A stretch of 64,000 bases of DNA from Pseudoclavibacter endophyticus (GTDB taxonomy: Bacteria > Actinomycetota > Actinomycetes > Actinomycetales > Microbacteriaceae). Within the stretch, counting starts at the first letter, position 1; each line of letters starts with the position of its first letter. Both the position numbers and the translations under genes were made by a program. The DNA lies in assembly GCF_008831085.1 (NCBI RefSeq), contig NZ_WBJY01000001.1, positions 1,178,001 to 1,242,000 on the forward strand, in the 5' to 3' direction. The notes below the pieces were generated by a model that was not told the origin of the DNA, searched no databases, and worked only from the letters and a program-made list of their open reading frames with translations. Positions 192-16,599 of the stretch are shown here, piece by piece.

Positions 192-1166
192 CTACGAGCT
201 GACGATGCCAGCCCGACGGCGATTGAAGTCGATCGTGCGCTGGTCGAGCGGGGTCGAGTTCGCCGAGAGAGCGGCCGAGATACGCGTGGCGTAGAGGCGG
301 ACGGGGTCGACGAGCGGGGCCGGCGACTGGGTGCCGGTACGGAACACCGCCCCGATCGCTGCGACGACCTTTCCCGAGCTGTCGTGAATCGGCGCCGCGA
401 TCGCACCGGCGCCGTGCGCGACGAACTTCTCCGAGATGCAGTACCCGTCGCGTCGCACGCGCGCGAGGACGGCCTTCAGCTCGCTCGGCGTCGCGGGGTT
501 GAACTCGGTGAAGCGGCTGAGGTGCTTCGACGCGAAGTCTTCGATGTCGTCGGGCGCAGCATCCGCGAGCAGCACGAGGCCCGTCGCCGTCACGTGCAGC
601 GGCAGGCGACCGCCGATCCGGTTCGCGCCGCTCCAGTTGGGGTGAGCGCGGAGCGCATCGAGGTACACGACCTCATGGTCGTCGCGCACAGCGAGCTGCA
701 CCGACAACCCCGTACGGCGGTGCAGGTCGACGAGGTGTGGCACCGCGAGCTCGCGCATGCGCATGCCGCTCGTCGAGGCCGAGGCAAGGTCGAGGAACCG
801 GCGGCTCAGCCGGTACCGCCCCTGCTCGTCGACGTCAAGGCCGCCCCACTCGAGCAGTTCGCGTACGAGGCGGTGCGCGGTCGGCAGGGGCAGGTCAGCG
901 TGCCGGCTGATCTCCGACAGCCGCAGCGAGCCGTCGCCGTGCGCGAAGGCGCCGAGCACCGACAGCACGCGCTGCGCGGCGGTGCGCTTCGGAGCCTCCT
1001 GCTCGTTCCCTGCCGCCTCTGATGCGACTGCCGAAACCACCGATGCCCCCCGTCCGCGGCATTCAACGTTGACCTTCTGCGCCGCATTCTGCTGCGGCGG
1101 CCGCTCGTTCAACGTTACCTCGTCACCAGTGGGGACAGCGGTGAGACGGCGAGGCGCGCGCGTCAT
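192..1166 (-). CDS. IclR family transcriptional regulator
   Basis: A 324-residue DNA-binding regulator. After a non-conserved N-terminal extension of about 58 residues comes a winged helix-turn-helix (about 60-125, with LRLSEISRHADLPLPTAHRL). The IclR effector domain follows, with typical elements such as VVYLDALRA, PLHVTATGLVLLA and AIAAPI. The start overlaps the stop of the upstream 89-residue gene by 4 bases, so it is the last gene of a minus-strand operon with the PaaK-like ligase and the NifU-like gene. IclR regulators commonly control adjacent catabolic operons and sense aromatic or organic acids; the ligand here is unknown. It most resembles the IclR gene at 35210. Confidence 0.9.
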   Translation of the reverse strand: MTRAPRRLTAVPTGDEVTLNERPPQQNAAQKVNVECRGRGASVVSAVASEAAGNEQEAPKRTAAQRVLSVLGAFAHGDGSLRLSEISRHADLPLPTAHRLVRELLEWGGLDVDEQGRYRLSRRFLDLASASTSGMRMRELAVPHLVDLHRRTGLSVQLAVRDDHEVVYLDALRAHPNWSGANRIGGRLPLHVTATGLVLLADAAPDDIEDFASKHLSRFTEFNPATPSELKAVLARVRRDGYCISEKFVAHGAGAIAAPIHDSSGKVVAAIGAVFRTGTQSPAPLVDPVRLYATRISAALSANSTPLDQRTIDFNRRRAGIVSS

Positions 1167-1489: not shown

Positions 1490-2839
1490 TCAGGCGTAGG
1501 GGTTCGTGCCCTCGACGTAGGTGAGGGCGTTCTTGTAATCGCTGATGGGGATCTCGCCGTGGGTCCGCGGCTCGATCGCGACGCGCACGCGCAACCGCTC
1601 GGAAACGGCGTCGGCGGCCGCCCGGAGGGGCCCTTCGGCAGTGGCGGCGTCGAGCCCCTCGCGTAGCTCGACCTCGAGCGGCAGCGGCGTATCGAAGCGC
1701 ACCTGGTCCTTCGTCTCCTTGCGGATTCGCATGGTGCCGCTGAGCACGTCGGAGGCCGTGTCGAGTACGACCTCGCGGATCGACGACGGGTAGACGTTCA
1801 TGGCCTTGTAGATGAGCATGTCATCGGTGCGGCCGACGCAGCGCACGGTCGGTGCCGTGCGGCCACAGGCGCATTCGACACCCGTGACGAGCAGCTGATC
1901 GCCGGACCGGAAGCGGACGACCGGGCACGCCTCGCGCGTGAGGGTCGTGTAGATCGCCTCGCCGGTCGCGCCCGGCTCCCACGGCACGTGCTCGTGCGTC
2001 TCGGGGTCGATGAGCTCGACCAGCACGTCTGGGGCAGCGGTGAAGTGCATGCCTCCACCGGCCTCGCACTCGGCCCACAGCGCGGGGAGCACGTCGCCGA
2101 GGCCCATGAATTCGCTTACGCGGGTCGCCCCCCACGCGTCGAGGATGCTCTGGCGGATGTGGGGCACGCCGGCCCCGGGCTCCCCGCCGGCAATGACCGT
2201 TCTCACGGCCAGCTCGGGCGCCGGCACGCCGAGCAGCTCTTCGCACCGGTTCGCGAAGTGCGTGGCGAAGGAGGCGGTGGCCACCAGCACGCTCACGCGA
2301 AGGCGCTGCATGGCCGTCGCCATCCGCGCGGTCGTCTGACCGCCGATCCAGGCGAGCGCTCCGCCCGCCGATCGGATCCCGTCGGCGTACGGCATGCCGC
2401 CCGCGACGATCGCCATGCCGGTCGTGAGGGCGACGATGGTGCCGGGCTCGACGCCGGCCGTGCGGTACGCGTTGCCGATGCCGGCGCGCCAGCGGTCGAG
2501 GTCGTTGGCCGTGACGCCGAAGTAGGTCGGCGCGCCGGTCGTGCCCGACGAGCTCGTGATCTGCACGAGCTGATCGGTGCTGGCGAGTTGGAAGGCGCCG
2601 AGAGGCTTCGTCGGGTCGGGTTCCACCTGGGCGTCGCGGAGGTCGTGCTTCGTGGTGAACGGCACATCCCGGAGGGCTGCGTACGCGTCCACCGGCTGCA
2701 GGTGGCCGATGCGCGACCGCCACACCTCGTGTTGCGTGAGGCGGTTCTGCAGGTCGCGGAACATCGCGACCTGATGCTCCTGCAGCTGTTCCCACGACAC
2801 CGTCGACGGCGGGGAGGTCTCGAGACCGGTCTGCGACAT
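1490..2839 (-). CDS. Phenylacetate-CoA ligase-like adenylate-forming enzyme
   Basis: A 449-residue PaaK-type ligase expected to adenylate a carboxylic acid and transfer it to CoA. The ATP-binding loop SSSGTTGAPT lies near residue 96. Later come a VVRFRSGD core motif, a GRTDDMLIYKAMNVYPSSI segment that begins the C-terminal lid, and a Cys pair (CACG) in the segment before it, as in PaaK. The start is set at 2839 because GGAG lies 5 bases upstream; the ATG at 2854 and more distant starts have no ribosome site. It is the first gene of the minus-strand operon, divergent from the first CGSC gene across a 238-base promoter region. The acid substrate is unknown. Confidence 0.85.
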   Translation of the reverse strand: MSQTGLETSPPSTVSWEQLQEHQVAMFRDLQNRLTQHEVWRSRIGHLQPVDAYAALRDVPFTTKHDLRDAQVEPDPTKPLGAFQLASTDQLVQITSSSGTTGAPTYFGVTANDLDRWRAGIGNAYRTAGVEPGTIVALTTGMAIVAGGMPYADGIRSAGGALAWIGGQTTARMATAMQRLRVSVLVATASFATHFANRCEELLGVPAPELAVRTVIAGGEPGAGVPHIRQSILDAWGATRVSEFMGLGDVLPALWAECEAGGGMHFTAAPDVLVELIDPETHEHVPWEPGATGEAIYTTLTREACPVVRFRSGDQLLVTGVECACGRTAPTVRCVGRTDDMLIYKAMNVYPSSIREVVLDTASDVLSGTMRIRKETKDQVRFDTPLPLEVELREGLDAATAEGPLRAAADAVSERLRVRVAIEPRTHGEIPISDYKNALTYVEGTNPYA

Positions 2840-2935
2840 GCGGGCTCCATTCATCGTTGCGCGTCGTCGCCGGGCAGCGCCCCGCTTCGACCTGCGCCAA
2901 TGCTGGTCGCTGGATGCCCGCTCCACCAACGATTC

Positions 2936-2950
2936 TTCCACTCGATGGAA
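2936..2950. promoter_or_regulatory. 15-bp inverted repeat TTCCA-N5-TGGAA, candidate IclR operator
   Basis: A perfect 5-base inverted repeat with a 5-base centre (CTCGA) in the divergent promoter region between the PaaK-like operon and the first CGSC module. TTCCA/TGGAA half-sites are reminiscent of IclR-family operators, and the minus-strand operon ends in an iclR gene. Partial versions occur at 18687, 40835 and 9258. Binding is inferred. Confidence 0.4.
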
Positions 2951-3077: not shown

Positions 3078-3650
3078 ATGTCAACGCAACAGATCCTCGA
3101 TCCCACGATTTCCTCACTTTCGACGCAGGCAACGAAGCCGGCGAGCGTCGCAGGAGGACCACTCCGCGTCGAGAGCCTCGACGGGCTGCGCGTCGGAGTC
3201 CTCGAGAACACCAAGCGCAATGCGGCCGAGATCCTCGACGCCCTTGCAGATGGGCTCGGTGAACGGTTCGACCTCGGGCAGGTCGTGCGCCGGACCAAGC
3301 GACAGTTCGCCATGCCCTTCAGCGACGAGCAGTTGCAGGACCTCCGCGACGAGGTCGACGTGCTCGTGATCGGCGTCGGCGACTGCGGGTCCTGCAGCGC
3401 CGCCGCGGTGGCTGACGGCATCGCCCTCGAGGCGAACGGCATCCCGGCGGCCGTCATCTGCACCGACGCCTTCGAGGGCAACAGCCGCGCGATGGCGAAG
3501 CTCAAGGGCGCCCCCGACTTCGATTTCATCGTTACGAGCCACCCCGTCGCGAACCTCGACGACCAGGGCGTGCGCGAGCGCGGCCGGGCGCTCGTCGATG
3601 ACGTGGTCGGTCGCATCGTGGCATCGGCAGCGGCGGGCGCGGCTCGATGA
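3078..3650 (+). CDS. UGSC-family protein, Cys form (CGSC redox motif), copy 1
   Basis: A 190-residue protein with no signal peptide or membrane segment. After a variable N-terminus of about 30 residues comes a strand-turn GLRVGVLENTKRNA. A hydrophobic strand then leads into VGDCGSCSAA, with C103 and C106. Near the end are TDAFEGNSRAMA and SHPVANL. The GD-[UC]-G-S-C motif defines a family that includes selenocysteine members; here the first position is TGC, not TGA. The motif suggests thiol/disulfide or reductive chemistry, but no reaction is established. GGAGAG lies 7 bases before the ATG. It overlaps the partner gene by 4 bases, so the two are probably subunits of one enzyme. A paralogue lies at 9358. 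Confidence 0.75.
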   Translation: MSTQQILDPTISSLSTQATKPASVAGGPLRVESLDGLRVGVLENTKRNAAEILDALADGLGERFDLGQVVRRTKRQFAMPFSDEQLQDLRDEVDVLVIGVGDCGSCSAAAVADGIALEANGIPAAVICTDAFEGNSRAMAKLKGAPDFDFIVTSHPVANLDDQGVRERGRALVDDVVGRIVASAAAGAAR

Positions 3651-4732
3651 CGGCGCCCGCACCTACGGGAGGCCCCGCCGCGATCGAGGTCGCGGACGAT
3701 GCGCAGTCGGGGAGCTCCGAGCTCGACCCGGCCGCCGCGCGTGCCGTCGCAGAGCACCTCTTCGACCGCGGCTGGACCGACGGGTTGCCGACGCTCCCGG
3801 CAACGGAGGATGAGGTCGAGCGCTTCCTGGCGCACACCGACCGCGACCCGGACGAGATCCTGGCCCGGCTGCCGCAACTCGACAAGCAGGCGACCGTGCG
3901 CGACATCACCGTGCACGCGATCATGGCCGGATGCCGGCCCGAGTACCTGCCCGTCGTGCTGACGGCCTGGGAGGCGCTTTCGGCCGACCGCACGGCGATT
4001 GGCGGAGCATGGCAGTCGACGAGCGGACCCTCGCCCGTCGTCATCGTCAACGGGCCCATCCGTCAGCGGCTCGAACTCAACAGCGCAGGCGGCATCTTCG
4101 GCCCCGGTTTCCGGCCGAACGCGACGATCCCGAGGGCCATCGGCCTCACCGTGCGAAACAGCCTCGGCGTCGTGCCTCACGAGCTCGAGCAGGCGACGCA
4201 GGGCGTGCCGGGCCGGTGGGCGCAGTGCTTCGGCGAGGCCGAGGAACGCAGCCCCTGGGAGTCGTTCGCCACCGAGCTCGGGCTCGACGAGGGGGCCGAT
4301 GCCGTGAGCGTCATCCTGGCGCGCACGAGCGAGTTCGTCGATAACCGGCACTTCAACGACCCGATCGAGGTGCTGCGCGACTTCGCCGACTCGATGCAGC
4401 GGACCGGTCCGTGGATCTTCCCCACCTCGGCGTGCCTGCTCGTGCTCAACCCCGACCACGCGCGCGTGCTCGCCGAGGCCGGCTGGTCGAAGCAGGACGT
4501 ACGCGAGTGGCTCGTCGAGCACGCCGGAAAGACCGAGGCGCAGCTCGCCGCGGTCGGGAAGGCGCTCAGCCGCGGCGATCAGCGGTTCGATGACGACCAC
4601 TTCCACCCCGTCTTCGCCGAGCCCACGCCGGAGCACCTGCCCATCGTGGTCGGAGGGTCGCCCAACGCGGCCATCTCGATGGTGGTGCGCGTGTTCTCGC
4701 GCTGGCCGGGCAAGGCGTTCCGGATTCACTGA
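3647..4732 (+). CDS. Partner protein of the CGSC module (WTDGLP motif), copy 1
   Basis: A 361-residue protein of no function that can be assigned. Conserved points shared with its paralogue at 9894 are WTDGLP near residue 43, TDRDP near 64, AGCRPEYLP with C96, WQST near 122, FGPGFRPNATI (151-161), QATQG, SPWE, AGWSK and a Gly/Asn-rich strand near the C-terminus (VVGGSPNAAIS). There is no signal peptide or transmembrane helix, so it is probably cytoplasmic. The 4-base ATGA overlap with the CGSC gene, seen again in the second copy, argues for a fixed stoichiometric complex. The invariant Cys and FG-x-GFR-x-NAT segment are the best candidates for an active site. Confidence 0.7.
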   Translation: MTAPAPTGGPAAIEVADDAQSGSSELDPAAARAVAEHLFDRGWTDGLPTLPATEDEVERFLAHTDRDPDEILARLPQLDKQATVRDITVHAIMAGCRPEYLPVVLTAWEALSADRTAIGGAWQSTSGPSPVVIVNGPIRQRLELNSAGGIFGPGFRPNATIPRAIGLTVRNSLGVVPHELEQATQGVPGRWAQCFGEAEERSPWESFATELGLDEGADAVSVILARTSEFVDNRHFNDPIEVLRDFADSMQRTGPWIFPTSACLLVLNPDHARVLAEAGWSKQDVREWLVEHAGKTEAQLAAVGKALSRGDQRFDDDHFHPVFAEPTPEHLPIVVGGSPNAAISMVVRVFSRWPGKAFRIH

Positions 4733-4781
4733 CGGCGACCCGCTCGCAACGGCGCGTGCCGCACAACTGAGAGGAACATTC

Positions 4782-5648
4782 GTGACGATTGACGAGAAGT
4801 GGCGGCAGGCCATCTCCGACCCCCTGGCTACGGCGGAGGGCCCGTGGCTGACCGGGAAGGTGGCGGCCATCGCCGGTGGCGGCCTGAGCGGCCCCGAGGG
4901 CGGGGTCGGATTCGGGATCGCCTGGCTGTGCGCGCGAAGCGGCGCCAACGTGGCGGTGCTCGACCGTGATCGGGAGGCGGGCGAACGCGCCGTCGAGCTG
5001 ATCCGGGAGCTCGGCGTCGATGCCGAGTGGATCGAGCTCGACATCATGGACGACGCCTCGTGCCAAACGGCGGTTGCCGCGGCGAAGGAACGGTTCGGCC
5101 GAATCGACGTCGTCGCCGACTCGATCGGCGGGGGAAGCGTCGAGAGCATCCTCACGGTCAGCGAAGAGGAGTTCGACGCGACCATGACGCTGAACTTCAA
5201 GTCGGCGTGGATGCTGATCAAGCACGTCGCGCCCGCCATGGAAGACGGCGGGGCGATCGTCACCGTGTCGTCGGGTGCGACCGAGGGTCGTGGCCCCGGA
5301 ATGGCCTACACCTTCGCCAAGCACGCGCTCGAGAAGCTCACGATCGGCGCTTCGCAGACGCTCGCGTCTCGGCGCATTCGCGTGAACTGCGTGCGCGTCG
5401 GCATGATCTGGGGCGCGTTCGCGGCCAAGGGCATGACCGAGGACCGCCGCGAGCTGCGCCGCAAGAGTGTGGCGATGCAGATCGAGGGCAACTCGTGGGA
5501 CATCGCCTCTGCCGGGTTCTTCCTGCTCACCGAGCAGGCGAGGTGGGTGTCCGGCCAGGTGTTCTCGGTCGACGGCGGCGGCATGAGCGCGGCTGCGCGC
5601 GGCAATGTCGGCAGTGCGGGGTCCCCTGATCCCGGCAAGGGGGAGTAG
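4782..5648 (+). CDS. Short-chain dehydrogenase/reductase
   Basis: A 288-residue SDR. It has a Gly-rich nucleotide loop (AGGGLSGPEG to GVGFG, 31-45) that is longer than the usual TGxxxGIG, a VLDRD acidic end of strand 2 and an LDIMDD turn. The catalytic Ser lies in VSSGA (162-163), and Y175-x-x-x-K179 in AYTFAKHA. The C-terminus has the usual SGQVFSVDGG. The NNAG motif is replaced by DSIGGG, which is atypical. The GTG start at 4782 has AGAGGA 7 bases upstream. It follows the CGSC/partner pair by 49 bases and is probably cotranscribed. Its likely role is oxidation of a hydroxyacyl intermediate; the substrate is unknown. Confidence 0.85.
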   Translation: MTIDEKWRQAISDPLATAEGPWLTGKVAAIAGGGLSGPEGGVGFGIAWLCARSGANVAVLDRDREAGERAVELIRELGVDAEWIELDIMDDASCQTAVAAAKERFGRIDVVADSIGGGSVESILTVSEEEFDATMTLNFKSAWMLIKHVAPAMEDGGAIVTVSSGATEGRGPGMAYTFAKHALEKLTIGASQTLASRRIRVNCVRVGMIWGAFAAKGMTEDRRELRRKSVAMQIEGNSWDIASAGFFLLTEQARWVSGQVFSVDGGGMSAAARGNVGSAGSPDPGKGE

Positions 5649-5683
5649 GGCCGCAGCGGCTCAGGAGCGGGGCCGCACGGCGC

Positions 5684-5721
5684 GGTGCCGCGCGACGCCG
5701 GTGAACCGTCGCGCGGGCACC
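5684..5721. terminator. Stem-loop between convergent genes
   Basis: Arms 5684-5697 and 5707-5721 pair over 14 bases with one bulged G, leaving a 9-base loop. There is no T tract. It sits between the SDR stop (5648) and the acyl-CoA dehydrogenase stop (5760), so it could terminate both operons. The right arm lies inside the first unit of a direct repeat, so a second copy of that arm can compete for pairing. Confidence 0.4.
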
Positions 5722-5756
5722 ACGCCGCCGAACCGTGGCGCGGGCACCACGCCGCC
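5703..5756. repeat. Tandem direct repeat, two 27-base units
   Basis: Units 5703-5729 and 5730-5756 are identical except for one base (C or G at the eighth position). The 27-base period keeps frame, but no gene covers it. Each unit contains the right arm of the stem-loop that starts at 5684. Confidence 0.75.
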
Positions 5757-5759
5757 GCT

Positions 5760-6986
5760 CTATCCGGCCGGCGACGACCGGGGCGTGAAGGCGCTGAGAC
5801 CCGTCGCGGCCCTTCCCACAATGAGCGAGTTCATCTCGTGGGTTCCCTCGTAGGTGTAGACGGCCTCCGCGTCGGCGAAGTACCGGCCCAGGTCGTTCTT
5901 GACGAGCAGGCCGTCGCCGCCGCCGATGCCGCGACCGAGCGCGACGGTCTCGCGCAGGCGCGCCGCGGCGAAGGCCTTCGCGAGCGATGCGATCTCTCCC
6001 GTGAACTCGTCGCGGAGGCGCAGCTCGGTGATGCGGGCGGCCAGCGCGAGCGTCGCCGTGACGTTCCCGAGCATTCGCGCCAGCTGCTCCTGCACGAGCT
6101 GGAACCCGCCGATCGGCCGGCCGAACTGCTCCCGCTCGGTCGCGTGCCGAACCGCCGCCTCGTATGCGCCCGCCTGCATGCCGGCGGCATTCCACGCGAC
6201 GACGAACCGCAGGTCGCCGAGGATGCGCGCGATGTCGGCGAAGTGCGTGATGCCCGGCAGCCGGCTCGATTCGGGCACACGCACGTCGCGGAGCACGATG
6301 TCGCCGTTGCGCACCATCCTCAACGCGATCTTCCCAGGGATATCCGTGATCTCGACGCCGGGAGCCGTGCGCGGAACGAGGAATGCGCGCGCCTCGCCAT
6401 CGCCGGCGTCGCGGGCGATGACGAGAATCAGGTCGGAGACGCTCGCGTTGCCGATCCAGCGCTTGCGCCCCCGGATCGTCCATGTGGCGCCTTCGCCGTG
6501 CCCATGGCGCTCCGCGGTCGTCTCCATGCCGCGCGCGACGTCGGAGCCGTGATCGGGCTCCGTGAGCGCGAAGCATCCGGTCGTCTCGAACGACAGGATG
6601 CCGGGCTCGAGGCTCGCGAGCTGTTCCGGCGACGCACCCCCGCGCAGCACGGTGCGGAACATGCCGACGTTGCCGCCGTAGAGCGTGGCGATCGACGCGT
6701 CGAAGCGCTGGAACTCGAAGTGCTTGAAGCCGACGTAGTACGGGGACAGCGCCGGCTCGGGAGCGCGCGAGTGCGGGCTCCCGAGCAGCGACGGGTCATC
6801 CTCGAGCCGCAGCGCCGCCAAGCCGGGTCGCAGCTCGACGGGGGAGTGGGCGCGCTCCCACCAGCTGGCGAGGTGGGGACGCGCCTCGGCCTCGAGGAAG
6901 GCGCGCAACTCGTCGAGCTTCGCGTGCTCCGCGCCGGACAGCAGCTCGTCTCGGTACCCCAGGAGATCGGTCGGCAGCGGTGTCAT
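5760..6986 (-). CDS. Acyl-CoA dehydrogenase
   Basis: A 408-residue flavoprotein of the acyl-CoA dehydrogenase family, introducing a trans-2 double bond into an acyl-CoA. The middle domain shows CFALTEPDHGSD (flavin and substrate loop) and W-T-I-RG-x-KRWIGNA. The C-terminal helical domain ends with TYEGTHEMNSL, in which the Glu of YEGT is at the usual catalytic-base position. The ATG at 6986 overlaps the stop of the upstream acyl-CoA ligase by 4 bases, so longer in-frame extensions are unlikely. It is the last gene of the MaoC-ligase-dehydrogenase operon; together they supply activation, dehydrogenation and hydration. Chain or side-group preference cannot be told. Confidence 0.9.
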   Translation of the reverse strand: MTPLPTDLLGYRDELLSGAEHAKLDELRAFLEAEARPHLASWWERAHSPVELRPGLAALRLEDDPSLLGSPHSRAPEPALSPYYVGFKHFEFQRFDASIATLYGGNVGMFRTVLRGGASPEQLASLEPGILSFETTGCFALTEPDHGSDVARGMETTAERHGHGEGATWTIRGRKRWIGNASVSDLILVIARDAGDGEARAFLVPRTAPGVEITDIPGKIALRMVRNGDIVLRDVRVPESSRLPGITHFADIARILGDLRFVVAWNAAGMQAGAYEAAVRHATEREQFGRPIGGFQLVQEQLARMLGNVTATLALAARITELRLRDEFTGEIASLAKAFAAARLRETVALGRGIGGGDGLLVKNDLGRYFADAEAVYTYEGTHEMNSLIVGRAATGLSAFTPRSSPAG

Positions 6987-8728
6987 GCCCTGGCGGGTCC
7001 GAGCTCGGCCGCCGCCTCGTCGCGAAGGCGTTCGAGGGGGATCTTGCCCGTCACCGAGCGGTCGAGGCTCGTCCGCAGAAACACGTGTTTCGGCTTCTTG
7101 TAACCGGCGAGCCGCTGGCCCACGAACGCCGACAGTTGCCCGCCCGTGACGTCGGCGCCGTCCTCGACGGCGACGGCGGCGCACACCACCTCGCCGTAAC
7201 GGGGGTGCGGCATGCCGAACACGACGGCATCGCTGACGGCGTCGTGCTCGAGCAGCGCCTGCTCGACCTCGGCCGGGAAGACCTTCTCTCCGCCAGTGTT
7301 GACGACGGCACGGCCGCGGCCGAGGAGCTCGATCCGGCCGTCGTCCTCGACGCGCACCCAGTCGCCGGGCACCAGATGCCGGCGCCCGCGGATCACGGGA
7401 AACGACGAGGCCGTCTTGACCGGATCGCCGAAGTACCCGGTCGGCAGAATGCCGCGGAAGGCGATGAGACCGACGGTGCCCGGCACGGGATCGAGCGCCC
7501 GGTGCTCGGCATCGAGGATCACGGCGTCGGGGGTGAGCTCCATGCGCGTCGTGACCTCGTCGGCCGACCTCGAGACGCCGAGCGCGTAAGGGCCGCCCTC
7601 ACTCGAGGCGAACATATCGACGATGGTCATATCCCCCTGCGCGTGGAGCCGGCGCTTCGTGTCGGCCGAGAGTCGCATGCCGGAGCTGATGATCGACGTG
7701 ACGTCGGGCAGGCCGTCACCGGCCTCCGCGGCCTCGACAAGCGGGAGTGCGAGCACGTCGCCGGCGACGATGACGCGATTGACGCGGTGCTCCCTGATGA
7801 GTTCGTAGACACGCTGCACGTCCATTCGGGGAGCACCCTGCAGCACGACGCAGCCGCCGATCGCGAGCGTCGCCATGGTCGCCGATTGCGCGGTGCCGTG
7901 GAGCAGCGGGCTCATGGGGAGGGTGACGAGCTGCTGACGCGTGGGGTCGCACGCGATGTCGACCGCCTCCTCGAACGTCGTCGGCGGTTCGGCGCCGATG
8001 AGCCCCCAGGTGGAGTTGCGGCGCACGACGAGGAGCGTGTCGAGATCCCACACGACCGCTTTCGGCGACCCCGTGGTACCGCCCGTGTAGAGGCGCATGC
8101 AGGCGCCGCTGGGAGCGGTGGCGGGCATGGAGCCGCCCGCCGCGATGACGTCGGCGTACGGCACCGGTGTTCCTGAAGGCGCGTGCCCTGCGGCAGCCCG
8201 TGGGACCGGCTGCTCGCCGGCCCCTTTCGGCGCCTGTCGAGCGTCCGGCGACCCCTGCGCTTCGTCATCGACCTCGATGAGATCGATGTCAAGGCCGTCG
8301 GCGGCCTCGAGCGCGAGGTCGCGCTCGGTCGCCTGGAACAGAAATGACCGGCAGTTCGAGTCGACGAGTAGCTCGCGCACCTCGGTGGCCCGGTACCGGT
8401 AGTTGATCGCGACGGGCGCGACGCCGATCGACAGGCACGCCCACAGGAACGTTAGGAACTCGGCTCGGTTGTAGAGCAACGTGGCCGCCGCGTCGCCCTG
8501 CACGAGGCCGGCGCGCGTGAGGTGCGCGGCGACTGCGCCGGCCTCGCGCGCCAGCTGCCCCCACGTGACCTCGCCGAGCGGCGTGACGACGGCCCGTCGT
8601 TCGGGCGTCCGTGCCGCGATGCCCTGCCACAGGTCGCTGTAGTGGGGCGCCCACGCCACCGTGTTATCCGCCGAAACGTCCGCGGCCGCGTCGGCCGCCG
8701 ACCGGGACCCGGTGTTCACGCCGCTCAT
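6983..8728 (-). CDS. AMP-forming acyl-CoA synthetase
   Basis: A 581-residue member of the ANL adenylating superfamily. The P-loop is RLYTGGTTGSPKA (about 212-224). Later motifs are GYFGDP, the hinge region after IELLGRGRAVVNTGGEK, and the C-terminal catalytic Lys segment SVTGKIPLERL. A Gly/Pro/Ala-rich insert of about 35 residues around 160-195 is unusual. The 4-base overlaps at both ends (with MaoC upstream and the acyl-CoA dehydrogenase downstream) show one translationally coupled operon. It probably activates the same or a related acid as the PaaK-like enzyme at 1490, giving this locus two independent CoA-ligase types. Confidence 0.9.
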   Translation of the reverse strand: MSGVNTGSRSAADAAADVSADNTVAWAPHYSDLWQGIAARTPERRAVVTPLGEVTWGQLAREAGAVAAHLTRAGLVQGDAAATLLYNRAEFLTFLWACLSIGVAPVAINYRYRATEVRELLVDSNCRSFLFQATERDLALEAADGLDIDLIEVDDEAQGSPDARQAPKGAGEQPVPRAAAGHAPSGTPVPYADVIAAGGSMPATAPSGACMRLYTGGTTGSPKAVVWDLDTLLVVRRNSTWGLIGAEPPTTFEEAVDIACDPTRQQLVTLPMSPLLHGTAQSATMATLAIGGCVVLQGAPRMDVQRVYELIREHRVNRVIVAGDVLALPLVEAAEAGDGLPDVTSIISSGMRLSADTKRRLHAQGDMTIVDMFASSEGGPYALGVSRSADEVTTRMELTPDAVILDAEHRALDPVPGTVGLIAFRGILPTGYFGDPVKTASSFPVIRGRRHLVPGDWVRVEDDGRIELLGRGRAVVNTGGEKVFPAEVEQALLEHDAVSDAVVFGMPHPRYGEVVCAAVAVEDGADVTGGQLSAFVGQRLAGYKKPKHVFLRTSLDRSVTGKIPLERLRDEAAAELGPARA

Positions 8729-9195
8729 CGCAGGTGCCGCAGGACAAGCTCCGCCACGGTGACTGGCTTGCCGCCGCCTTCGAGCTCGTAGACGAGCTCG
8801 AGCGCGACCTGCACGCCGCCGTCGATCGCGGTGACGTTCGCGATAGTGCCGCGCACCCGGATGCGACCGCCCGACGGCACCGGCGCGGGGAACCGGATGC
8901 GGTTGAACCCGTAGACGATGCCGGTTCCCGTGTCGGTGATGCGGTAGATCTCGCGGAGGTGGCGCACCACCATGCCGAGCGTGAGCATCCCGTGCGCGAT
9001 GCGCGTGCCGAATGGCGAGGCGGCCGCGGCGTCGGCGTCGACGTGGATGGGGTTGTCGTCGCCCGTGAGGTCGGCGTACGTGTCGATGTCGTCCTGCGTG
9101 ATCTCGCGCCAGCTCGAGGGGCCAAAGGCGGTGCCCTCTGCCCCGTCGAGGTCGTCGATGGTCGCGACGAACGTCGTCGTTTCGGTGTCGGTCAT
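8725..9195 (-). CDS. MaoC-like enoyl-CoA hydratase (hot-dog fold)
   Basis: A 156-residue hot-dog protein. The hydratase-2 motif appears as YADLTGDDNPIHVD, followed by SPFGTRIAHGML and the strand NRIRFPAPVPSGGRI. Family members hydrate trans-2-enoyl-CoA or bind acyl-CoA. The ATG at 9195 follows GAAGGAG. An upstream in-frame ATG at 9210 would include this ribosome site in the coding region and is rejected. It is first in the operon with the acyl-CoA synthetase (4-base overlap) and the acyl-CoA dehydrogenase, and would act after the dehydrogenase. Confidence 0.85.
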   Translation of the reverse strand: MTDTETTTFVATIDDLDGAEGTAFGPSSWREITQDDIDTYADLTGDDNPIHVDADAAAASPFGTRIAHGMLTLGMVVRHLREIYRITDTGTGIVYGFNRIRFPAPVPSGGRIRVRGTIANVTAIDGGVQVALELVYELEGGGKPVTVAELVLRHLR

Positions 9196-9257
9196 CGTGC
9201 TCCTTCGCATCGGATGCTCACCACTTTGTCCCCCGCGCGCGAGGCCTTCGTGCCGCT

Positions 9258-9272
9258 TTCCATCCTGCGAAA
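9258..9272. promoter_or_regulatory. Imperfect TTCCA-N5-xxGAA-like site in the divergent promoter
   Basis: The site has a left half TTCCA and a degenerate right half CGAAA, placed between maoC (start 9195) and the second CGSC gene (start 9358). It can also be read as TTTC-N8-GAAA shifted by one base. It is weaker than the perfect repeat at 2936 and is listed because it has the same position relative to the homologous module. Confidence 0.2.
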
Positions 9273-9357
9273 CGGCGCGCGCCGGGCTACGCCCACCGTG
9301 CGACAGTTCCGCTGCATGCGGGCCGAAGGTGGCCCGCCGACCGATGAAGGGATGCTG

Positions 9358-9897
9358 ATGGCTACGTTAGAGCCGATGCTCGACCCGACCGGGGTGGCCG
9401 ACGATACGTCGGCGACGACGCTCTCGCCGCGCCCCGTGAGCCTCGAGGGACTCACCGTGGGACTCCTCGACAACACCAAACCCAACGCGACGCTGCTGCT
9501 GAACGCGCTCGGCGACCTGCTCACGACGCGGTATGGCGTCGGAGCAACGAAGCTCTACACGAAGGACTACTTCGGCACGCCGGTCAAGCAGGAGCTGCTC
9601 GATGAGATCGTGCGCGACTGTGATGTGGTCGTCACCGCCGTGGGCGACTGCGGTTCCTGCAGCGCTGCCACGGTGGCCGACGGGCTGCTGTTCGAACGTG
9701 TCGGCGTACCGACCGTGTCGATCACCTCGGACTCCTTCTTCGCGTCGGGCCGCGCCATGGCGAGCGTGCAGGGCTTCCCCGACTTCCAGTTCATGGCGGT
9801 GCCGCACCCGGTCGCCAGCCTGAACAACGACGAGATCCGCGAGCGCGCCGAGGCGGCGCTGCCGCAGGTGCTGAGCATCCTGGGGGTTGAGGCATGA
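9358..9897 (+). CDS. UGSC-family protein, Cys form (CGSC redox motif), copy 2
   Basis: A 179-residue paralogue of the protein at 3078. Shared elements are GLTVGLLDNTKPNA, VGDCGSCSAATVADG (C98 and C101), SDSFFASGRAMA, GFPDFQF and PHPVASL. The central segment (about 60-85) differs strongly from copy 1, which suggests a different substrate or partner surface. The start is set at 9358 because GAAGGG is about 7 bases upstream; an ATG at 9352 is too close to it. The gene overlaps its partner by 4 bases, exactly as in copy 1. As there, the first motif position is TGC, so no selenocysteine is used. Confidence 0.75.
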   Translation: MATLEPMLDPTGVADDTSATTLSPRPVSLEGLTVGLLDNTKPNATLLLNALGDLLTTRYGVGATKLYTKDYFGTPVKQELLDEIVRDCDVVVTAVGDCGSCSAATVADGLLFERVGVPTVSITSDSFFASGRAMASVQGFPDFQFMAVPHPVASLNNDEIRERAEAALPQVLSILGVEA

Positions 9898-11015
9898 CGA
9901 GCGAGATGATGGCGACGGACGCCGGCGGCACAGTGACGGAGATCGACGGCAGGGCCGTGCGGGCGGCGATCGAGGCCGCGTTTGAGAACGAGTGGACCGA
10001 TGGCATGCCCGTGGTCCCGGTCACCGCGTCGATCCTCGAGGAGTTCCTCGCGGCGACCGATCGCGATCCGGCGGAGGTGCTCTTTCGGATCCCGCACCTC
10101 AACCGCGAGCTCACGGTCGAGCTCGCCGCGCTCAATGCGGCGCTCGCGGGCTGCAAGCCCGAATACGTGCCCGCCGTGATCGCGGCGTGGGAGTCGATCG
10201 CGAAGGAACCGCATCCGGTTCGTGGCATTTGGCAGTCGACAACGGGAACGGCCCCGTTCCTGCTCGTCAACGGCCCCGTCCGCACCGAGCTCGGCGTCAA
10301 CTGCGCCGGCAATGTGTTCGGCTCGGGCTTCCGCGCCAACGCGACGATCGGCCGCGCGATTCGCCTTGCACTCAATAACGTCTTCGGACTGCGCCCGCAT
10401 CTCCTCGACCAGGCGACGCAGGGCACGCCCGCGCGCTACGCGGCGGTCATCGGCGAATACGAGGAGCTGAGCCCCTGGGAGCCGTTCCACGTCGAGCACG
10501 GGTTCGGCGCCGACGAGAGCGTCGTGACGGCGTTCGTGATCCGTTCCGTCGTGCACATCGAGGCGCGCCACGCGATGACGCCAGAACAGCTCGCAGAGGA
10601 TCTCATCGACACGATCGCGCGCACGGGTGCGCTGATCCACGAGTACACGAGCACGCTGCTGGTGTTGACGCCCGAGCACGCCGCACTCTTCGCCGACGCC
10701 GGCTGGAGCAAGGCTCAACTGCGCGACTACATCACGACGAATGCGGTGCTCGACCGCGCCGACCTCGAGCGGGTCGGCAAGGACGCGCTCGCAACGAAGT
10801 CGCGGTGGCGCCTGCCCCGCGCGCACCCCGACGCGACCGCCGACTCCGCGGCCTCGAGCGACGAACCCGACCGCGTGCCGGTGCTGCGATTCCCGAGCTC
10901 GGTGCAGATCGTGGTCGCGGGCGCCAACAACGCCGGCGTGTCCGCCGTGGTCGAGGTGTTCACCCTCAACCCGCCGCGCGAGGAACCGTACTCGGCGACC
11001 GCCATTCGCGCGTAG
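9894..11015 (+). CDS. Partner protein of the CGSC module (WTDGMP motif), copy 2
   Basis: A 373-residue paralogue of the protein at 3647. It keeps WTDGMP (34-39), TDRDP, AGCKPEYVP with C87, WQST, FGSGFRANATI (142-152), QATQGTP, SPWEPF, AGWSK and a C-terminal Gly/Asn strand (VVAGANNAGVS). Relative to copy 1 it has an insert rich in Ala, Asp and Ser before the C-terminal strand (about 310-330). It has no signal peptide or membrane helix. Its function is unknown; conservation with copy 1 pinpoints the functional residues. It is followed after 152 bases by the SsuA-like gene, which may share or follow the same transcript. Confidence 0.7.
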   Translation: MTSEMMATDAGGTVTEIDGRAVRAAIEAAFENEWTDGMPVVPVTASILEEFLAATDRDPAEVLFRIPHLNRELTVELAALNAALAGCKPEYVPAVIAAWESIAKEPHPVRGIWQSTTGTAPFLLVNGPVRTELGVNCAGNVFGSGFRANATIGRAIRLALNNVFGLRPHLLDQATQGTPARYAAVIGEYEELSPWEPFHVEHGFGADESVVTAFVIRSVVHIEARHAMTPEQLAEDLIDTIARTGALIHEYTSTLLVLTPEHAALFADAGWSKAQLRDYITTNAVLDRADLERVGKDALATKSRWRLPRAHPDATADSAASSDEPDRVPVLRFPSSVQIVVAGANNAGVSAVVEVFTLNPPREEPYSATAIRA

Positions 11016-11167: not shown

Positions 11168-12238
11168 ATGTCACTTCGCACACGCAACGGCGCGGCGCGC
11201 AGACTGCGACAGACCACCGCGGCCGTGATCGCCACTGCGGCGCTCGCCCTCACGGGCTGCGCGGCCGACGGAGCGGGCGGGGGTGAGGGGGAGCTGCAGC
11301 CCCTGAGCGCCGTGACCTTCCTGCCGCTCGAGTCGTTCACCTTCACGCCCGAGATGGTCGCCTACGCGGGCGGCTTCTTCGAGGACCACGGCCTCGACGT
11401 GGATTTGCAGGCCGTGCAGGGATCGGCCGCCGCGATCCAGGCCGTCATCAGCGGCGCCACTGACGTTACGCGCGCGAGCACGATCGACTCGATGCCGCCG
11501 TTCGAGCAGGGCCAGCCGCTCCTGGCGGTGGGCACGATGGCGCACAAGTCGAACATTCGCGTCGCCTCGGCCGCGTCGCACCCGATCGAGGACGGCGCGT
11601 CGATGGCCGGACAGACGATCGGCATGGGCTCGATCGGCGGCACGAGCGAGAAGGCGCTGGACCTCATGCTGCACGCCGAGGGCGTCGACCCCGATTCGGT
11701 CACGCGCCAGAGCGTGCCCGTGACGGGGGCGACATTCGAGCTCGTCAAGCAGGGGCAGCTCGCCGGCTACATCGTGAGCCTCGACACCTCGATCGCGATC
11801 GCGCAGCAAAATGAGGATGCAGTCATCGACGCGGCCGGGCTCGATGAGGTCCCCGACTTCCAGACCTGGCTCGTCTCCGAGGAAACGGCGGCGGACCCCG
11901 AGAAGGGCCCGCGCGTGACGGCGTTCATGGCCGCGATTCGAGACGCCGTGCAGTTCGTGATCGACGACGCGCCGAACGACTACGTGAACGTGCTCGAGAT
12001 GCTGCGCGAGAGCGGCGAGTTCCAGTTCGCCGCGCTCGACGACGACGCGATCGCCAAGGAGGCGCTCGACTTCTACACGACGGAGACGTGGGTCAACCCC
12101 GAGACGGGCGGCGACATCCTGGTCAACGATCAGGAGAAGTGGGCTGCCGCCTACGAGAGCTACGCGGGCACCGGCCTCGTCGAGGGCAGCCACGATCCGA
12201 GTGCGTGGATGACCGACGACCTGCTCCCCACCGAGTGA
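11168..12238 (+). CDS. ABC transporter substrate-binding lipoprotein (SsuA/NMT1 type), copy 1
   Basis: A 356-residue solute-binding protein. It has a basic N-terminus, a hydrophobic stretch and the lipobox LTGC, so it should be an exported lipoprotein. The mature part has the NMT1/SsuA layout: FLPLESFTFTPEMVAYAGGFFEDHGLDV, then VQGSAAAIQAVISGATDVTR and GMGSIGGTSEKALD. This family binds small anions and heterocycles such as sulfonates, nitrate or pyrimidine precursors. GAGGAG precedes the ATG by 7 bases. It is the first gene of the block with the ATPase, permease and carboxylase genes. A close paralogue follows directly. Confidence 0.88.
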   Translation: MSLRTRNGAARRLRQTTAAVIATAALALTGCAADGAGGGEGELQPLSAVTFLPLESFTFTPEMVAYAGGFFEDHGLDVDLQAVQGSAAAIQAVISGATDVTRASTIDSMPPFEQGQPLLAVGTMAHKSNIRVASAASHPIEDGASMAGQTIGMGSIGGTSEKALDLMLHAEGVDPDSVTRQSVPVTGATFELVKQGQLAGYIVSLDTSIAIAQQNEDAVIDAAGLDEVPDFQTWLVSEETAADPEKGPRVTAFMAAIRDAVQFVIDDAPNDYVNVLEMLRESGEFQFAALDDDAIAKEALDFYTTETWVNPETGGDILVNDQEKWAAAYESYAGTGLVEGSHDPSAWMTDDLLPTE

Positions 12239-12252
12239 GTGGAACTCCGGAT

Positions 12253-13320
12253 ATGACGATCACCGCACGTACCGGGACATCGAAATCTGCGCGGACCCCG
12301 AAGGGGCGCATCGCGACGGCCCTGGTCGGCGCGGCGGCGCTCATTCTCACGGGATGCGCCACCGACGACGGCCAGGAACTGCATGACATGAACGTCGTCA
12401 CGTTCCTGCCGCTCGACTCGATCACCTTCACACCGGAGATGTTCGCGTACGCGGGCGGCTACTTCGAGAAACACGGGCTGAACGTCAATCTCGAGCCGGT
12501 CCAAGGCAGCGCCGCGGCGATGCAGGCGGTCATCTCGGGAGCAGCGGACATCACGCGAGTGAGCTCGCTCGACTCGTTCCCCGCGTTCGAACAGGGCCAG
12601 CCGATCAGCTCGATCGGCACGATGGCGTACGGCTCTCCGATTTGGTTCCTTTCACATGACGCGAATCCGATCGAGTCGGCCCAGGACATGGCCGGGCAGG
12701 TCGTCGGCCTCGGGTCGATCGGAGGTACCAGCGAGAACCTGCTGAACCTCACGCTCGACGCGAACGGCGTTGCACGAGACGACGTGACGCGTCAGGCCGT
12801 GCCCGTTACGAGCGCGACGTTCGAACTCGTTCGTCAGGGACAGTTGGCCACCTACATGGTCAGCATCGACACCGCGTTCTACATCGGCAACCAAAACGAC
12901 GACGCGGTCCTGTCACAGGCCGGCCTCGAGGAGACGCCCGACCTTCACACCTGGATAGCGAGTTCTGCGCTTCTCGAGGATGCAGAGCGTGCCGAGGAGG
13001 TTCGAGCCTTCCTCGCGGCGATTCGCGAAGCGATGCAGTTCGTCCTCGACGACGCTCCAAACGATTTCGCAGAGGTGATCTCGATCCTCGAGCAGAGCGA
13101 ATTCGAGATTCCAGCGCTGAGCGTCGAGGAGGTCGCGATCGAGTCGCTGTCGTGGTACGCGGAAAACGTGTGGATCGATCCGGACGGCGACCACGGACTC
13201 ATCGAGAACGACGCCGAAGCATGGCAGATCGCCTACGACACCTATGTCGAAGGTGGCCTCCTCGAAGGCGGGCACGACCCGCAGTCGTGGGTGACCGATG
13301 AGTTCGTTCCCACCGACTGA
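12253..13320 (+). CDS. ABC transporter substrate-binding lipoprotein (SsuA/NMT1 type), copy 2
   Basis: A 355-residue tandem paralogue of the preceding protein, with lipobox LTGC, FLPLDSITFTPEMFAYAGGYFEKHGL, VQGSAAAMQAVISGAADITR and GLGSIGGTSENLLN. It is clearly alignable throughout, but the ligand-cleft regions around GSPIWFLSHDANP and the C-terminus differ from copy 1. No strong ribosome site precedes its ATG, which lies 14 bases after the previous stop, so translation may depend on the upstream gene. Two receptors feeding one ATPase/permease pair would widen substrate range. Confidence 0.87.
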   Translation: MTITARTGTSKSARTPKGRIATALVGAAALILTGCATDDGQELHDMNVVTFLPLDSITFTPEMFAYAGGYFEKHGLNVNLEPVQGSAAAMQAVISGAADITRVSSLDSFPAFEQGQPISSIGTMAYGSPIWFLSHDANPIESAQDMAGQVVGLGSIGGTSENLLNLTLDANGVARDDVTRQAVPVTSATFELVRQGQLATYMVSIDTAFYIGNQNDDAVLSQAGLEETPDLHTWIASSALLEDAERAEEVRAFLAAIREAMQFVLDDAPNDFAEVISILEQSEFEIPALSVEEVAIESLSWYAENVWIDPDGDHGLIENDAEAWQIAYDTYVEGGLLEGGHDPQSWVTDEFVPTD

Positions 13321-13395: not shown

Positions 13396-14235
13396 ATGAC
13401 TATGGCAGCGACGAGCGTCGAGCAATCGGCCGGAAAGGATGCTGCGGAAGGCGACGTTCCACGGCTCCTGATCCGCGACGTCGGGAGGGACTTCCGCACT
13501 CGGAACGGTGTCACGCACGCCGTTTCGGGCGTCGACCTGAGCATCCAGAAGGGCGAGTTCGTCGCGGTGATCGGCCGGTCGGGCTGTGGAAAGACGACGC
13601 TCTTGCGCATGGTCGGCGGCTTGCTGCCGCCGACCAGCGGCGAGATAGAGGTCGACGGGAAGCGGCTGTGGAACGGGACGCAGGTGGACTCCTCAGCGAT
13701 CACCAAGCTCGGCTTCGTGTTCCAGGAGAGCAACCTGTTCCCATGGTTCAGCGTGCTCGACAACATCGCGCTGCCGATGAAGCTGCGCGGTGTTGGGAAG
13801 CGCCAGCGACGGGCCCGCGCCACCGAGCTCGCCGAGCTCGTCGGGCTCACCGGATTCGAGAAGTCGTACCCCAGGGAGTTGTCTGGCGGCATGCGCCAGC
13901 GCGCGGCAATCGCGCGCGCCCTTTCGACGGAACCCGAGCTGCTCCTGATGGACGAACCGTTCGGGGCACTCGATGCACTCACGCGGGAGCGGATGAACCT
14001 CGAGCTGCAGCGCATCGTGCTGGAGACGACGTCGACGGTGGTGTTCGTGACGCACGACATCCCGGAGGCCGTCTTCCTGGCCGACCGCGTCGTCCACATG
14101 ACGCCACGTCCGGGCCGCATCCACCAGATCGTGCCGGCGGAGTTCCCGAAGCCGCGATCGGTCGACGTGCAGACGACGCTCGAATTCAACGAGATCGTCC
14201 GCAATCTCCGCAGCGACATTGACAAGGATGACTAA
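13396..14235 (+). CDS. ABC transporter ATPase (SsuB/TauB type)
   Basis: A 279-residue nucleotide-binding subunit. Walker A is GRSGCGKTT, the Q-loop FVFQESNLFPW, the signature LSGGMRQR, Walker B LLLMDEPFGALD, and the switch His lies in VFVTHD. This matches the nitrate/sulfonate/taurine importer ATPases. The ATG at 13396 is preceded by GGGAGA; a second ATG lies two codons later. Its stop is directly followed by the permease ATG, with no spacer. It energises import for the two tandem binding proteins. Confidence 0.92.
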   Translation: MTMAATSVEQSAGKDAAEGDVPRLLIRDVGRDFRTRNGVTHAVSGVDLSIQKGEFVAVIGRSGCGKTTLLRMVGGLLPPTSGEIEVDGKRLWNGTQVDSSAITKLGFVFQESNLFPWFSVLDNIALPMKLRGVGKRQRRARATELAELVGLTGFEKSYPRELSGGMRQRAAIARALSTEPELLLMDEPFGALDALTRERMNLELQRIVLETTSTVVFVTHDIPEAVFLADRVVHMTPRPGRIHQIVPAEFPKPRSVDVQTTLEFNEIVRNLRSDIDKDD

Positions 14236-15033
14236 ATGAGCCGTTCACGAATGCTGAAGCTCCTGCCGTGGATTGCGACACCGCTGCTCGTGATCCTGAT
14301 CATCATCGCGTGGCAGATCATTGTCACGGTCTTCAACGTGAATCCGTTCATCTTCCCGCCGCCCGGCGAGGTGGGATCAACGTTCATCGGTCTGTTCGCC
14401 GACCCGAGGACGTGGAATGCGACGTGGGTCACGGTCACCGAGATCGTCGTCGGCTTCCTGATCGCGGTCGTCATCGGATTGACCGTCGGCGTCATCCTCG
14501 GCAAGGTTCGATGGCTCGAAGTCAGTCTGCGGCCCCTCATCATCATCTCGCAGGTCGCCCCCAAGGTCGCGTTCATCCCGCTGTTCGTGATCTGGTTCGG
14601 GTTCGGGATGACCTCGAAGATCGTCCTCGCGGTACTGCTGGCGTTCTTCCCCATCATGCTTAACGTGCTGCTCGGCGTGCGGTCGGTCGAGCAGGGGCAC
14701 CGTGAAGTGTTGCAAAGCCTCAACGCGTCGAGGTGGCAGCGGTTCACGCAGCTCGACATGCGTTCGCTGCAGCCTCACCTCTTCGCGGGAATGGAGGTGG
14801 GCATCGTGCTCGCGACCATCGGCGCGATCGTCGGCGAATACCTCGGAGGGAACGACGGGCTCGGGAACCTTGTCGTGGCCTCGATGAACGCGCTCGATGC
14901 CGGAATGACGTTCGCGCTGATCCTCTGGCTCTCGCTCATCGGTCTGGTGCTGTATCTCATCGTCAATGAGCTCAAGCGGTTCTTCATTCCCTGGCACGAG
15001 TCGGTCTACGGGCTGAACAACGTGGGCGTCTAA
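14236..15033 (+). CDS. ABC transporter permease (SsuC/TauC type)
   Basis: A 265-residue integral membrane subunit with about six hydrophobic helices, beginning at LLVILIIIAWQIIV. The coupling EAA-type loop lies near the region LNASRWQRFTQLDMRSLQPHLFAG-x-EVG. The family is binding-protein-dependent transport permease 1. It is immediately adjacent to the ATPase gene, with no intergenic base, and is followed after 12 bases by the carboxyltransferase gene. That spacing links uptake directly to a carboxylation step. Confidence 0.9.
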   Translation: MSRSRMLKLLPWIATPLLVILIIIAWQIIVTVFNVNPFIFPPPGEVGSTFIGLFADPRTWNATWVTVTEIVVGFLIAVVIGLTVGVILGKVRWLEVSLRPLIIISQVAPKVAFIPLFVIWFGFGMTSKIVLAVLLAFFPIMLNVLLGVRSVEQGHREVLQSLNASRWQRFTQLDMRSLQPHLFAGMEVGIVLATIGAIVGEYLGGNDGLGNLVVASMNALDAGMTFALILWLSLIGLVLYLIVNELKRFFIPWHESVYGLNNVGV

Positions 15034-15045
15034 GAGGAGGTGAAC

Positions 15046-16563: not shown

Positions 16564-16599
16564 GCGGAACGACCGCCATGAGAAGAAGGAAGTGACCGG

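Follow-up and report, generated by a model that had tools for sequence, protein, structure and literature searches.

Two gene pairs of the UGSC family are the subject of this work. They lie in a 64,000-nucleotide stretch of the Pseudoclavibacter endophyticus genome (contig NZ_WBJY01000001.1, positions 1,178,001 to 1,242,000), hereafter called the window. In each pair, a gene for a small protein with the motif GDCGSC (UGSC-1 and UGSC-2) is followed by a gene for a larger protein (partner-1 and partner-2), and the tetranucleotide ATGA is common to the end of the former and the start of the latter. This confirms the four-base overlaps described in an earlier reading made from the DNA alone (hereafter the sequence-only reading), and the three partner motifs listed there, WTDG-x-P, AGC-[RK]-PEY and FG-x-GFR-x-NAT, are all present in both partners. 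Membership of the small proteins in the UGSC family, also proposed there, is borne out by PF24696 (196.3 bits for UGSC-1 and 227.7 bits for UGSC-2, against a Pfam cut-off of 25) and NF041046 (151.9 and 157 bits, against an NCBIfam cut-off of 125); weak NCBIfam matches between UGSC-1 and FAD proteins were set aside as noise from glycine-rich loops. Neither partner matched a Pfam or NCBIfam family above its cut-off, and sequence searches of the PDB returned nothing meaningful for UGSC-2, partner-2 or an 88-row profile of the partner. Of 8000 scored candidates, 2398 proved to be homologs of partner-2 at E ≤ 0.001.

The enzyme had been called undescribed, whereas UGSC has been a named selenoprotein family since 2008, when its fusion to a domain termed 'Unknown_1' was also reported (PMC2398784, available text). 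The same text ranks UGSC with the most abundant selenoprotein families of the Global Ocean Sampling data (Table 2, with 255 selenoproteins), and the accessible part of a 2026 review counts it among selenoproteins with largely uncharacterised functions (PMC13188914). The open-licence literature on UGSC, as far as its text was available, names no partner beyond 'Unknown_1', no link to thioredoxin and no relation to GrdB or PrdB. UGSC itself is therefore already known, and the additions made here are the partner family, a probable coupling to thioredoxin and a remote kinship with GrdB/PrdB.

Linkage, fusion and origin of the pairs

Across 296 genomes drawn from the phylum, own genome included, UGSC was found in 22 and the partner in 24, and all 22 UGSC genomes also hold the partner, with two further genomes being partner-only (Fisher 3e-31). 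Thirty-three of the 36 UGSC matches lie within 600 bases of a partner on the same strand. We also assembled a set of partner loci from named genomes, consisting of the best 80 of 478 confirmed stretches. A UGSC gene was present in the fetched stretch at 73 of these loci, and the nearest pair was on the same strand in all 73, within 400 bases in 72 and joined by an exact four-base overlap in 24. The module had been described as fixed, but its order differs between loci: partner-UGSC at 51, UGSC-partner at 19 and fused at three. Since the order varies while the linkage persists, the linkage is not left over from a single ancestral arrangement. Evolutionary distances among UGSCs and among partners agree closely (Mantel r 0.90, n = 72, 0 of 999 permutations), an agreement to which shared species history also contributes. 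Co-occurrence, adjacency, matched distances and the natural fusions described below uphold the view that the two families belong together and support the conclusion that UGSC and partner form one functional unit. The pair is an accessory, patchily spread module, present as UGSC in four of 299 genomes of the own family (Microbacteriaceae) and in none of five listed congeners. On a Paracoccus plasmid (L125:6971-13152), selB lies about 3 kb from a partner gene; no UGSC is annotated there, perhaps due to a TGA codon.

Outside the window, the own genome holds a third copy in the form of one 566-amino-acid fusion (L009:3685-5382, minus strand), in which a UGSC domain (PF24696, 1.9e-25) precedes a partner domain. 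This fusion scores 90.4 bits against the cut-off of 25 for PF24696 but 62 against 125 for NF041046. Because all of the best 120 of 6618 matches to it (540-573 amino acids) carry PF24696, the UGSC-partner fusion is widespread. AlphaFold2 modelled the natural fusion from 93 rows with a mean predicted local distance difference test (pLDDT) of 91.4 and a predicted template modelling score (pTM) of 0.89, implying that the two halves hold a definite mutual arrangement. A confident joint structure, of the kind called for in the sequence-only reading, was thus obtained for the natural fusion rather than for the window pairs. In Neorhizobium galegae VafX2 (L120:6965-9600), the fusion is annotated as two overlapping open reading frames and the following gene, resembling thioredoxin reductase (TrxR), contains stops; this locus has frame shifts or assembly errors.

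The two window pairs had been taken for a duplication of the whole pair. We found that pairs of other genomes are nearer to each of them (best-segment identity 67-70% for the partner and 59-63% for UGSC) than they are to each other (42% between the partners and 43% between the UGSCs). In the tree, UGSC-1 shares a clade with the copies of Microbacterium marinilacus and M. album (support 100/98), whereas UGSC-2 groups with Frigoribacterium and M. halotolerans (100/96), in a clade adjoining a selenocysteine (Sec)-containing Streptosporangiaceae copy (100/97). Judged from these identities and separately supported clades, the window pairs are not a local duplication. The pair-1 loci of M. marinilacus and M. 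album, each with one pair within the fetched stretch, hold relatives of the window CoA ligase, MaoC hydratase, IclR regulator and NMT1-type binding protein, in addition to an acyl-CoA dehydrogenase in M. marinilacus and a short-chain dehydrogenase/reductase (SDR), ABC protein and permease in M. album. In Frigoribacterium and M. halotolerans, the same type of ABC protein and permease is found about 5 kb away from pair 2, with other enzymes between. Two catabolic modules thus appear to have come together in the window.

Active site, kinship and electron supply

An in-frame TGA codon, read as Sec, occupies the first motif position in 65 of the 73 UGSC genes at partner loci, the other eight having cysteine; the Sec motif is UGSC, with UGAC, UGLC and USTC as variants. 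In the phylum survey, 25 of 36 UGSC matches contain the in-frame TGA. The window copies are cysteine forms, unlike most of their relatives, and the CGSC of UGSC-1 lines up with the position of the Sec codon in other UGSCs and in GrdB- and PrdB-like proteins. The UGSC tree requires four Sec/Cys state changes, suggesting repeated loss of Sec. Together with the thioredoxin domains and TrxR-like genes alongside, the prevalence of Sec makes the site very probably redox-active, as had been supposed.

The sequence-only reading had further raised the question whether C103 and C106 of UGSC-1 face C96 of the partner, which would make a heteromeric centre of three thiols. In an alignment of 88 mostly split partners, 80 have the cysteine of the AGC motif and the other eight (one of them split, L035) have alanine. 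Among 69 fused rows, on the other hand, this position is alanine in 64 and cysteine in five, while the UGSC site still reads C-S-T-C in 66 of the 69, counting U as C. The fused rows mostly read CSTC in the model alignment, in a set biased to cysteine because protein databases cut genes at TGA. Going by these alignments, the partner cysteine is not required throughout the family, although it may assist in split forms, and we regard a three-thiol centre as very unlikely.

Profiles were compared with hhalign. The UGSC profile matched GrdB (score 51.3, E 1.7e-6) and PrdB-like proteins (49.1, E 1.8e-6) with Sec aligned on Sec. After trimming, the scores were 49.8 and 48.9 respectively, compared with at most 20.3 in 40 column shuffles, and with the motif masked they were 36.5 (E 1.8e-4) against GrdB and 46.6 against PrdB-like proteins. 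As controls, seven unrelated window proteins, used as single sequences, scored 13-16 and reversed profiles 16.5 and 13.7. The partner profile matched neither GrdB nor PrdB-like proteins, and one GrdB searched against the PDB by sequence gave nothing meaningful. These scores indicate remote homology, in which UGSC would be a distant relative of the Sec-bearing C-terminal module of GrdB/PrdB. Small PrdB-like proteins whose genes have an in-frame TGA (UPxCxx) are common in UGSC genomes, and in some there are GrdB-like proteins with UGTSTRSG and no second cysteine (L095-L118).

In the available text of two sources, UGSC is grouped with thioredoxin-like redox proteins and a thioredoxin-like fold is suggested (PMC2398784, PMC13188914). 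The UGSC domain that we modelled consists of alternating strands and helices and aligns with Rossmann/CheY-like PDB chains; thioredoxins were absent among the 50 rows of structural PDB matches, in a comparison covering essentially the UGSC part (model residues 48-213). Nor did the UGSC profile match a thioredoxin profile built here. The ties to GrdB/PrdB, the partner and thioredoxin put the fold assignment of UGSC in question. The C-terminal stretch of an Arthrobacter UGSC (L124:7997-8809) stands at the NifU cut-off (27.2 versus 27 bits).

Thioredoxin does occur at many of the loci, attached to the partner. A profile search with the N-terminal domain of one partner (L062) found similar domains at 32 of the 80 loci: inside the called partner frame, with C-x-T-C, at 26, in frame across the called partner start or contig edge at four, and directly upstream at two. 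The profile of this domain matches PDB thioredoxins (best 4.5e-8), and C-x-T-C and a VP turn are conserved; Pfam names it weakly, as TraF in 12 of 34 and as thioredoxin-type families in one to three of 34. Genes resembling thioredoxin reductase stand next to some pairs and fusions as well. In Arthrobacter sp. ERGS1:01 (L124), trxB, trxA, partner and UGSC stand in a row, with a four-base overlap between trxA and the partner gene, trxB follows UGSC in Roseovarius, and it lies two genes before the partner in Variovorax SRS16. In all, a TrxR-like gene was seen near a pair or fusion at L009, L120, L121, L124, L126, L127, L132, L134 and L136. The fusion of the own genome (L009) is followed, with a 10-base overlap, by a TrxR-like flavoprotein gene with CASC. 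In three of four other fusion genomes, drawn from the order of betaproteobacterium G315, the genome-wide best match of this flavoprotein, among two to five candidates each, is a neighbour of a fusion. Taken together, these gene arrangements suggest that the enzyme is probably fed electrons by thioredoxin. The own-genome fusion, a cysteine form accompanied by a TrxR-like gene of its own, does not depend on selenocysteine machinery and should express easily.

Gene neighbourhoods of the pairs

The genes around the window pairs are listed together with them in the table below. The two types of CoA ligase, acyl-CoA dehydrogenase, MaoC hydratase and SDR noted in the sequence-only reading are all present, with the PaaK-like ligase scoring below family cut-offs.

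Table. Features of the window that make up or surround the two UGSC-partner pairs.
Feature	Position	Strand	Evidence
UGSC-1, cysteine form, 190 amino acids	3078..3650	+	PF24696 5.4e-58; open reading frame; ATGA overlap
CGSC site C103-C106 of UGSC-1	3384..3395	+	alignment
Partner-1, 361 amino acids, no known family	3647..4732	+	open reading frame, profile scans, alignment
UGSC-2, cysteine form, 179 amino acids	9358..9897	+	PF24696 1.3e-67; open reading frame
CGSC site C98-C101 of UGSC-2	9649..9660	+	sequence, alignment
Partner-2, 373 amino acids, no known family	9894..11015	+	open reading frame, profile scans, alignment
IclR-type regulator of pair-1 cluster	192..1166	-	PF01614 5.9e-29; 52% identical relative in L014, L016
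PaaK-like AMP-forming CoA ligase	1490..2941	-	scores below family cut-offs
SDR dehydrogenase, true start probably later	4590..5648	+	profile scan; relative after pair 1 in M. album (L016)
Acyl-CoA dehydrogenase	5760..7184	-	profile scan; relative in L014
AMP-forming acyl-CoA ligase	6983..8728	-	profile scan; relatives in L014, L016
MaoC-type hydratase	8725..9210	-	profile scan; relatives in L014, L016
NMT1-type substrate-binding protein	11168..12238	+	PF09084 4.9e-26
ABC transporter ATPase	13396..14235	+	relatives of 82-84% identity near pairs of both types elsewhere (in L010, L011 partial matches at locus edge)
ABC transporter permease	14236..15033	+	profile scan; relatives near pairs elsewhere

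Two consecutive related substrate-binding proteins (11168-13320) stand ahead of the one ABC transporter; the NMT1 scan covered the first, and the second matches the same relatives. Downstream of this transporter, a carboxyltransferase-like protein (PYC_OADA) and a biotin carboxylase (15040-18530) probably constitute a biotin-dependent carboxylase.

Elsewhere, transporters and catabolic-type regulators are frequent neighbours, as are CoA ligases or transferases, hydratases and dehydratases, in contexts that range from malonate genes to gentisate-type and AcnX genes (the last two identified by eye). This variety suggests one chemistry acting on many substrates. Malonate was considered as a common product, given a malonyl-CoA synthase before the fusion in the own genome and a malonyl-CoA decarboxylase and synthase in Neorhizobium, and was rejected, as five fusion loci from the order of betaproteobacterium G315 show other genes by eye. 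Among plasmid matches (24 records, 12 of them selected and examined), fused UGSC-partner genes of Sporomusa and Vibrio (L123, L128) both adjoin aconitase X/DUF126 genes, with the Vibrio UGSC match slightly below cut-off. Dihydroxyacid-dehydratase-like genes, identified by eye, lie near UGSC pairs in an actinobacterium (L010:8031-9758) and a betaproteobacterium (L059:2700-4373).

These neighbourhoods bear on two other explanations. The pair might have a protective and not a catabolic role, as a thiol-disulfide oxidoreductase or a peroxidase with proteins, peroxides or oxidised small thiols as its substrates. The Sec-x-x-Cys site, the linkage to thioredoxin and TrxB and the placement of UGSC among thioredoxin-like redox proteins in the literature seen in part (PMC2398784, PMC13188914) would fit this, as would a reference title in the available text of PMC3091704 that reports peroxidase activity of GrdB. 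We nevertheless consider it unlikely in view of the frequent catabolic-type neighbours (though no neighbour family recurs in more than eight of 80 loci), the three diverged copies in the own genome, the patchy spread (four of 299 genomes in the family) and a large conserved partner without a known family. Alternatively, the site might catalyse an isomerase, lyase or acyl transferase reaction through a covalent Cys/Sec intermediate without net reduction, with thioredoxin merely rescuing the oxidised site. Nearby CoA ligases, aromatic-acid genes seen by eye and the conservation of MaoC and SDR relatives beside pair 1 are compatible with such a reaction; built-in thioredoxin domains and dedicated TrxR-like genes fit stoichiometric electron use better than rescue, and we give non-reductive catalysis little credence.

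Proposed reaction and comparison with known systems

Of the explanations weighed here, we favour, with somewhat better than even confidence, the one in which UGSC and the partner each supply half of a single soluble thioredoxin-dependent thiol or selenol reductase with imported carboxylates as substrates. UGSC would be a Rossmann-like domain with a nucleophilic [Sec/Cys]-x-x-Cys, and the partner the substrate-binding half, in place of the pyruvoyl subunit GrdE/PrdA, holding the imported carboxylate either free or CoA-bound. Attack by Sec or Cys on the carboxylate would lead to loss of a substituent or reduction of a bond, after which the resolving cysteine at +3 would free the product and form a (seleno)disulfide. 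Thioredoxin, either a protein of its own or fused to the partner as its N-terminal domain, would reduce this bond; the electrons would come from a TrxR-like flavoprotein that uses NAD(P)H and that in the own genome would be encoded by the gene adjoining the fused gene. We infer this division of labour, and likewise the electron path in the own organism. A carboxylate substrate is suggested by the recurring transporters (NMT1-type ABC, tripartite tricarboxylate and tripartite ATP-independent periplasmic), CoA ligases and transferases.

The chemical step, reductive cleavage, is our guess from analogy. In D-proline reductase, according to the available text of PMC3091704, Sec attacks the alpha carbon of the pyruvoyl-bound substrate, the C-N bond is cleaved, a neighbouring cysteine releases the product and the Se-S bond is re-reduced; in glycine reductase, electrons pass from NADPH through thioredoxin reductase and thioredoxin to GrdA. 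The same spacing of nucleophile and resolver and a probably similar electron supply lead us to suggest a thioredoxin-dependent carboxylate reductase, and by analogy the UGSC enzyme may cleave a bond at an activated carbon.

Several observations weigh against this proposal. UGSC and partner do occur apart, as 3 of 36 UGSC matches and 6 of 39 partner matches of the phylum survey stand alone and no UGSC was seen at 7 of the 80 partner loci (three of these seven stretches end no more than 228 bases past the partner), and one UGSC (L033, GDCGAS) is without the resolving cysteine. For the profile match, hhalign gives a probability of about 90% over 78-87 columns; with the motif masked the value is 49% against GrdB and 89% against PrdB-like proteins. 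Neither window UGSC matched the Pfam GRDB family (PF07355), PF24696 alone being reported; PF07355 gave no match in the own genome, although the control gave none either, and the partner did not match nine GrdE sequences (E 0.33-0.35). TrxR-like linkage at the 80 loci amounts to one clear case (L080) and two weak matches to other FAD proteins, and a TrxR-like gene was seen at nine of 22 re-examined loci of our own choice and at none of the other 13. The window has no TrxR-like gene, the two matches of the genome being elsewhere; thioredoxin was not searched for in the window. Finally, clustering of neighbours, based on simple open reading frame calls of which some are spurious in GC-rich DNA, found no family common to more than eight of the 80 loci, and the contexts are too varied for any substrate to emerge. 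Even so, tying UGSC to the partner, thioredoxin and the GrdB/PrdB module gives this family a testable biochemical role.

The window UGSCs share with the family as described in 2008 (PF24696/NF041046; PMC2398784, available text) the Sec/Cys-x-x-Cys site and a known domain fusion. With thioredoxin-fold selenoproteins (thioredoxin-, peroxiredoxin- and glutaredoxin-like) UGSC has UxxC in common, and many loci have a thioredoxin joined to the partner; UGSC differs from these proteins in its modelled Rossmann/CheY-like domain and in a profile that does not match the one thioredoxin profile tested. Its likeness to GrdB/PrdB (PF07355) lies in the probably homologous Sec module, the UxxC arrangement and the use of two different subunits. 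Supply by thioredoxin and TrxB, reported for glycine reductase in the accessible text of PMC3091704, may have a parallel on the UGSC side, where gene linkage and fusion occur at some loci. In contrast to GrdB, UGSC is without the N-terminal half, and its partner is unlike GrdE. Judging by their names, many of the organisms with UGSC are not known as amino-acid fermenters, unlike those with glycine and proline reductases. Tentatively, and with less than even confidence, UGSC and its partner might be viewed as a third major line of Sec/Cys substrate reductases, next to those acting on glycine/betaine and on D-proline, one that would be driven by thioredoxin, lack a pyruvoyl group, use an undescribed substrate-binding family and remove a substituent from imported carboxylates in many phyla and haloarchaea, largely outside fermenters.

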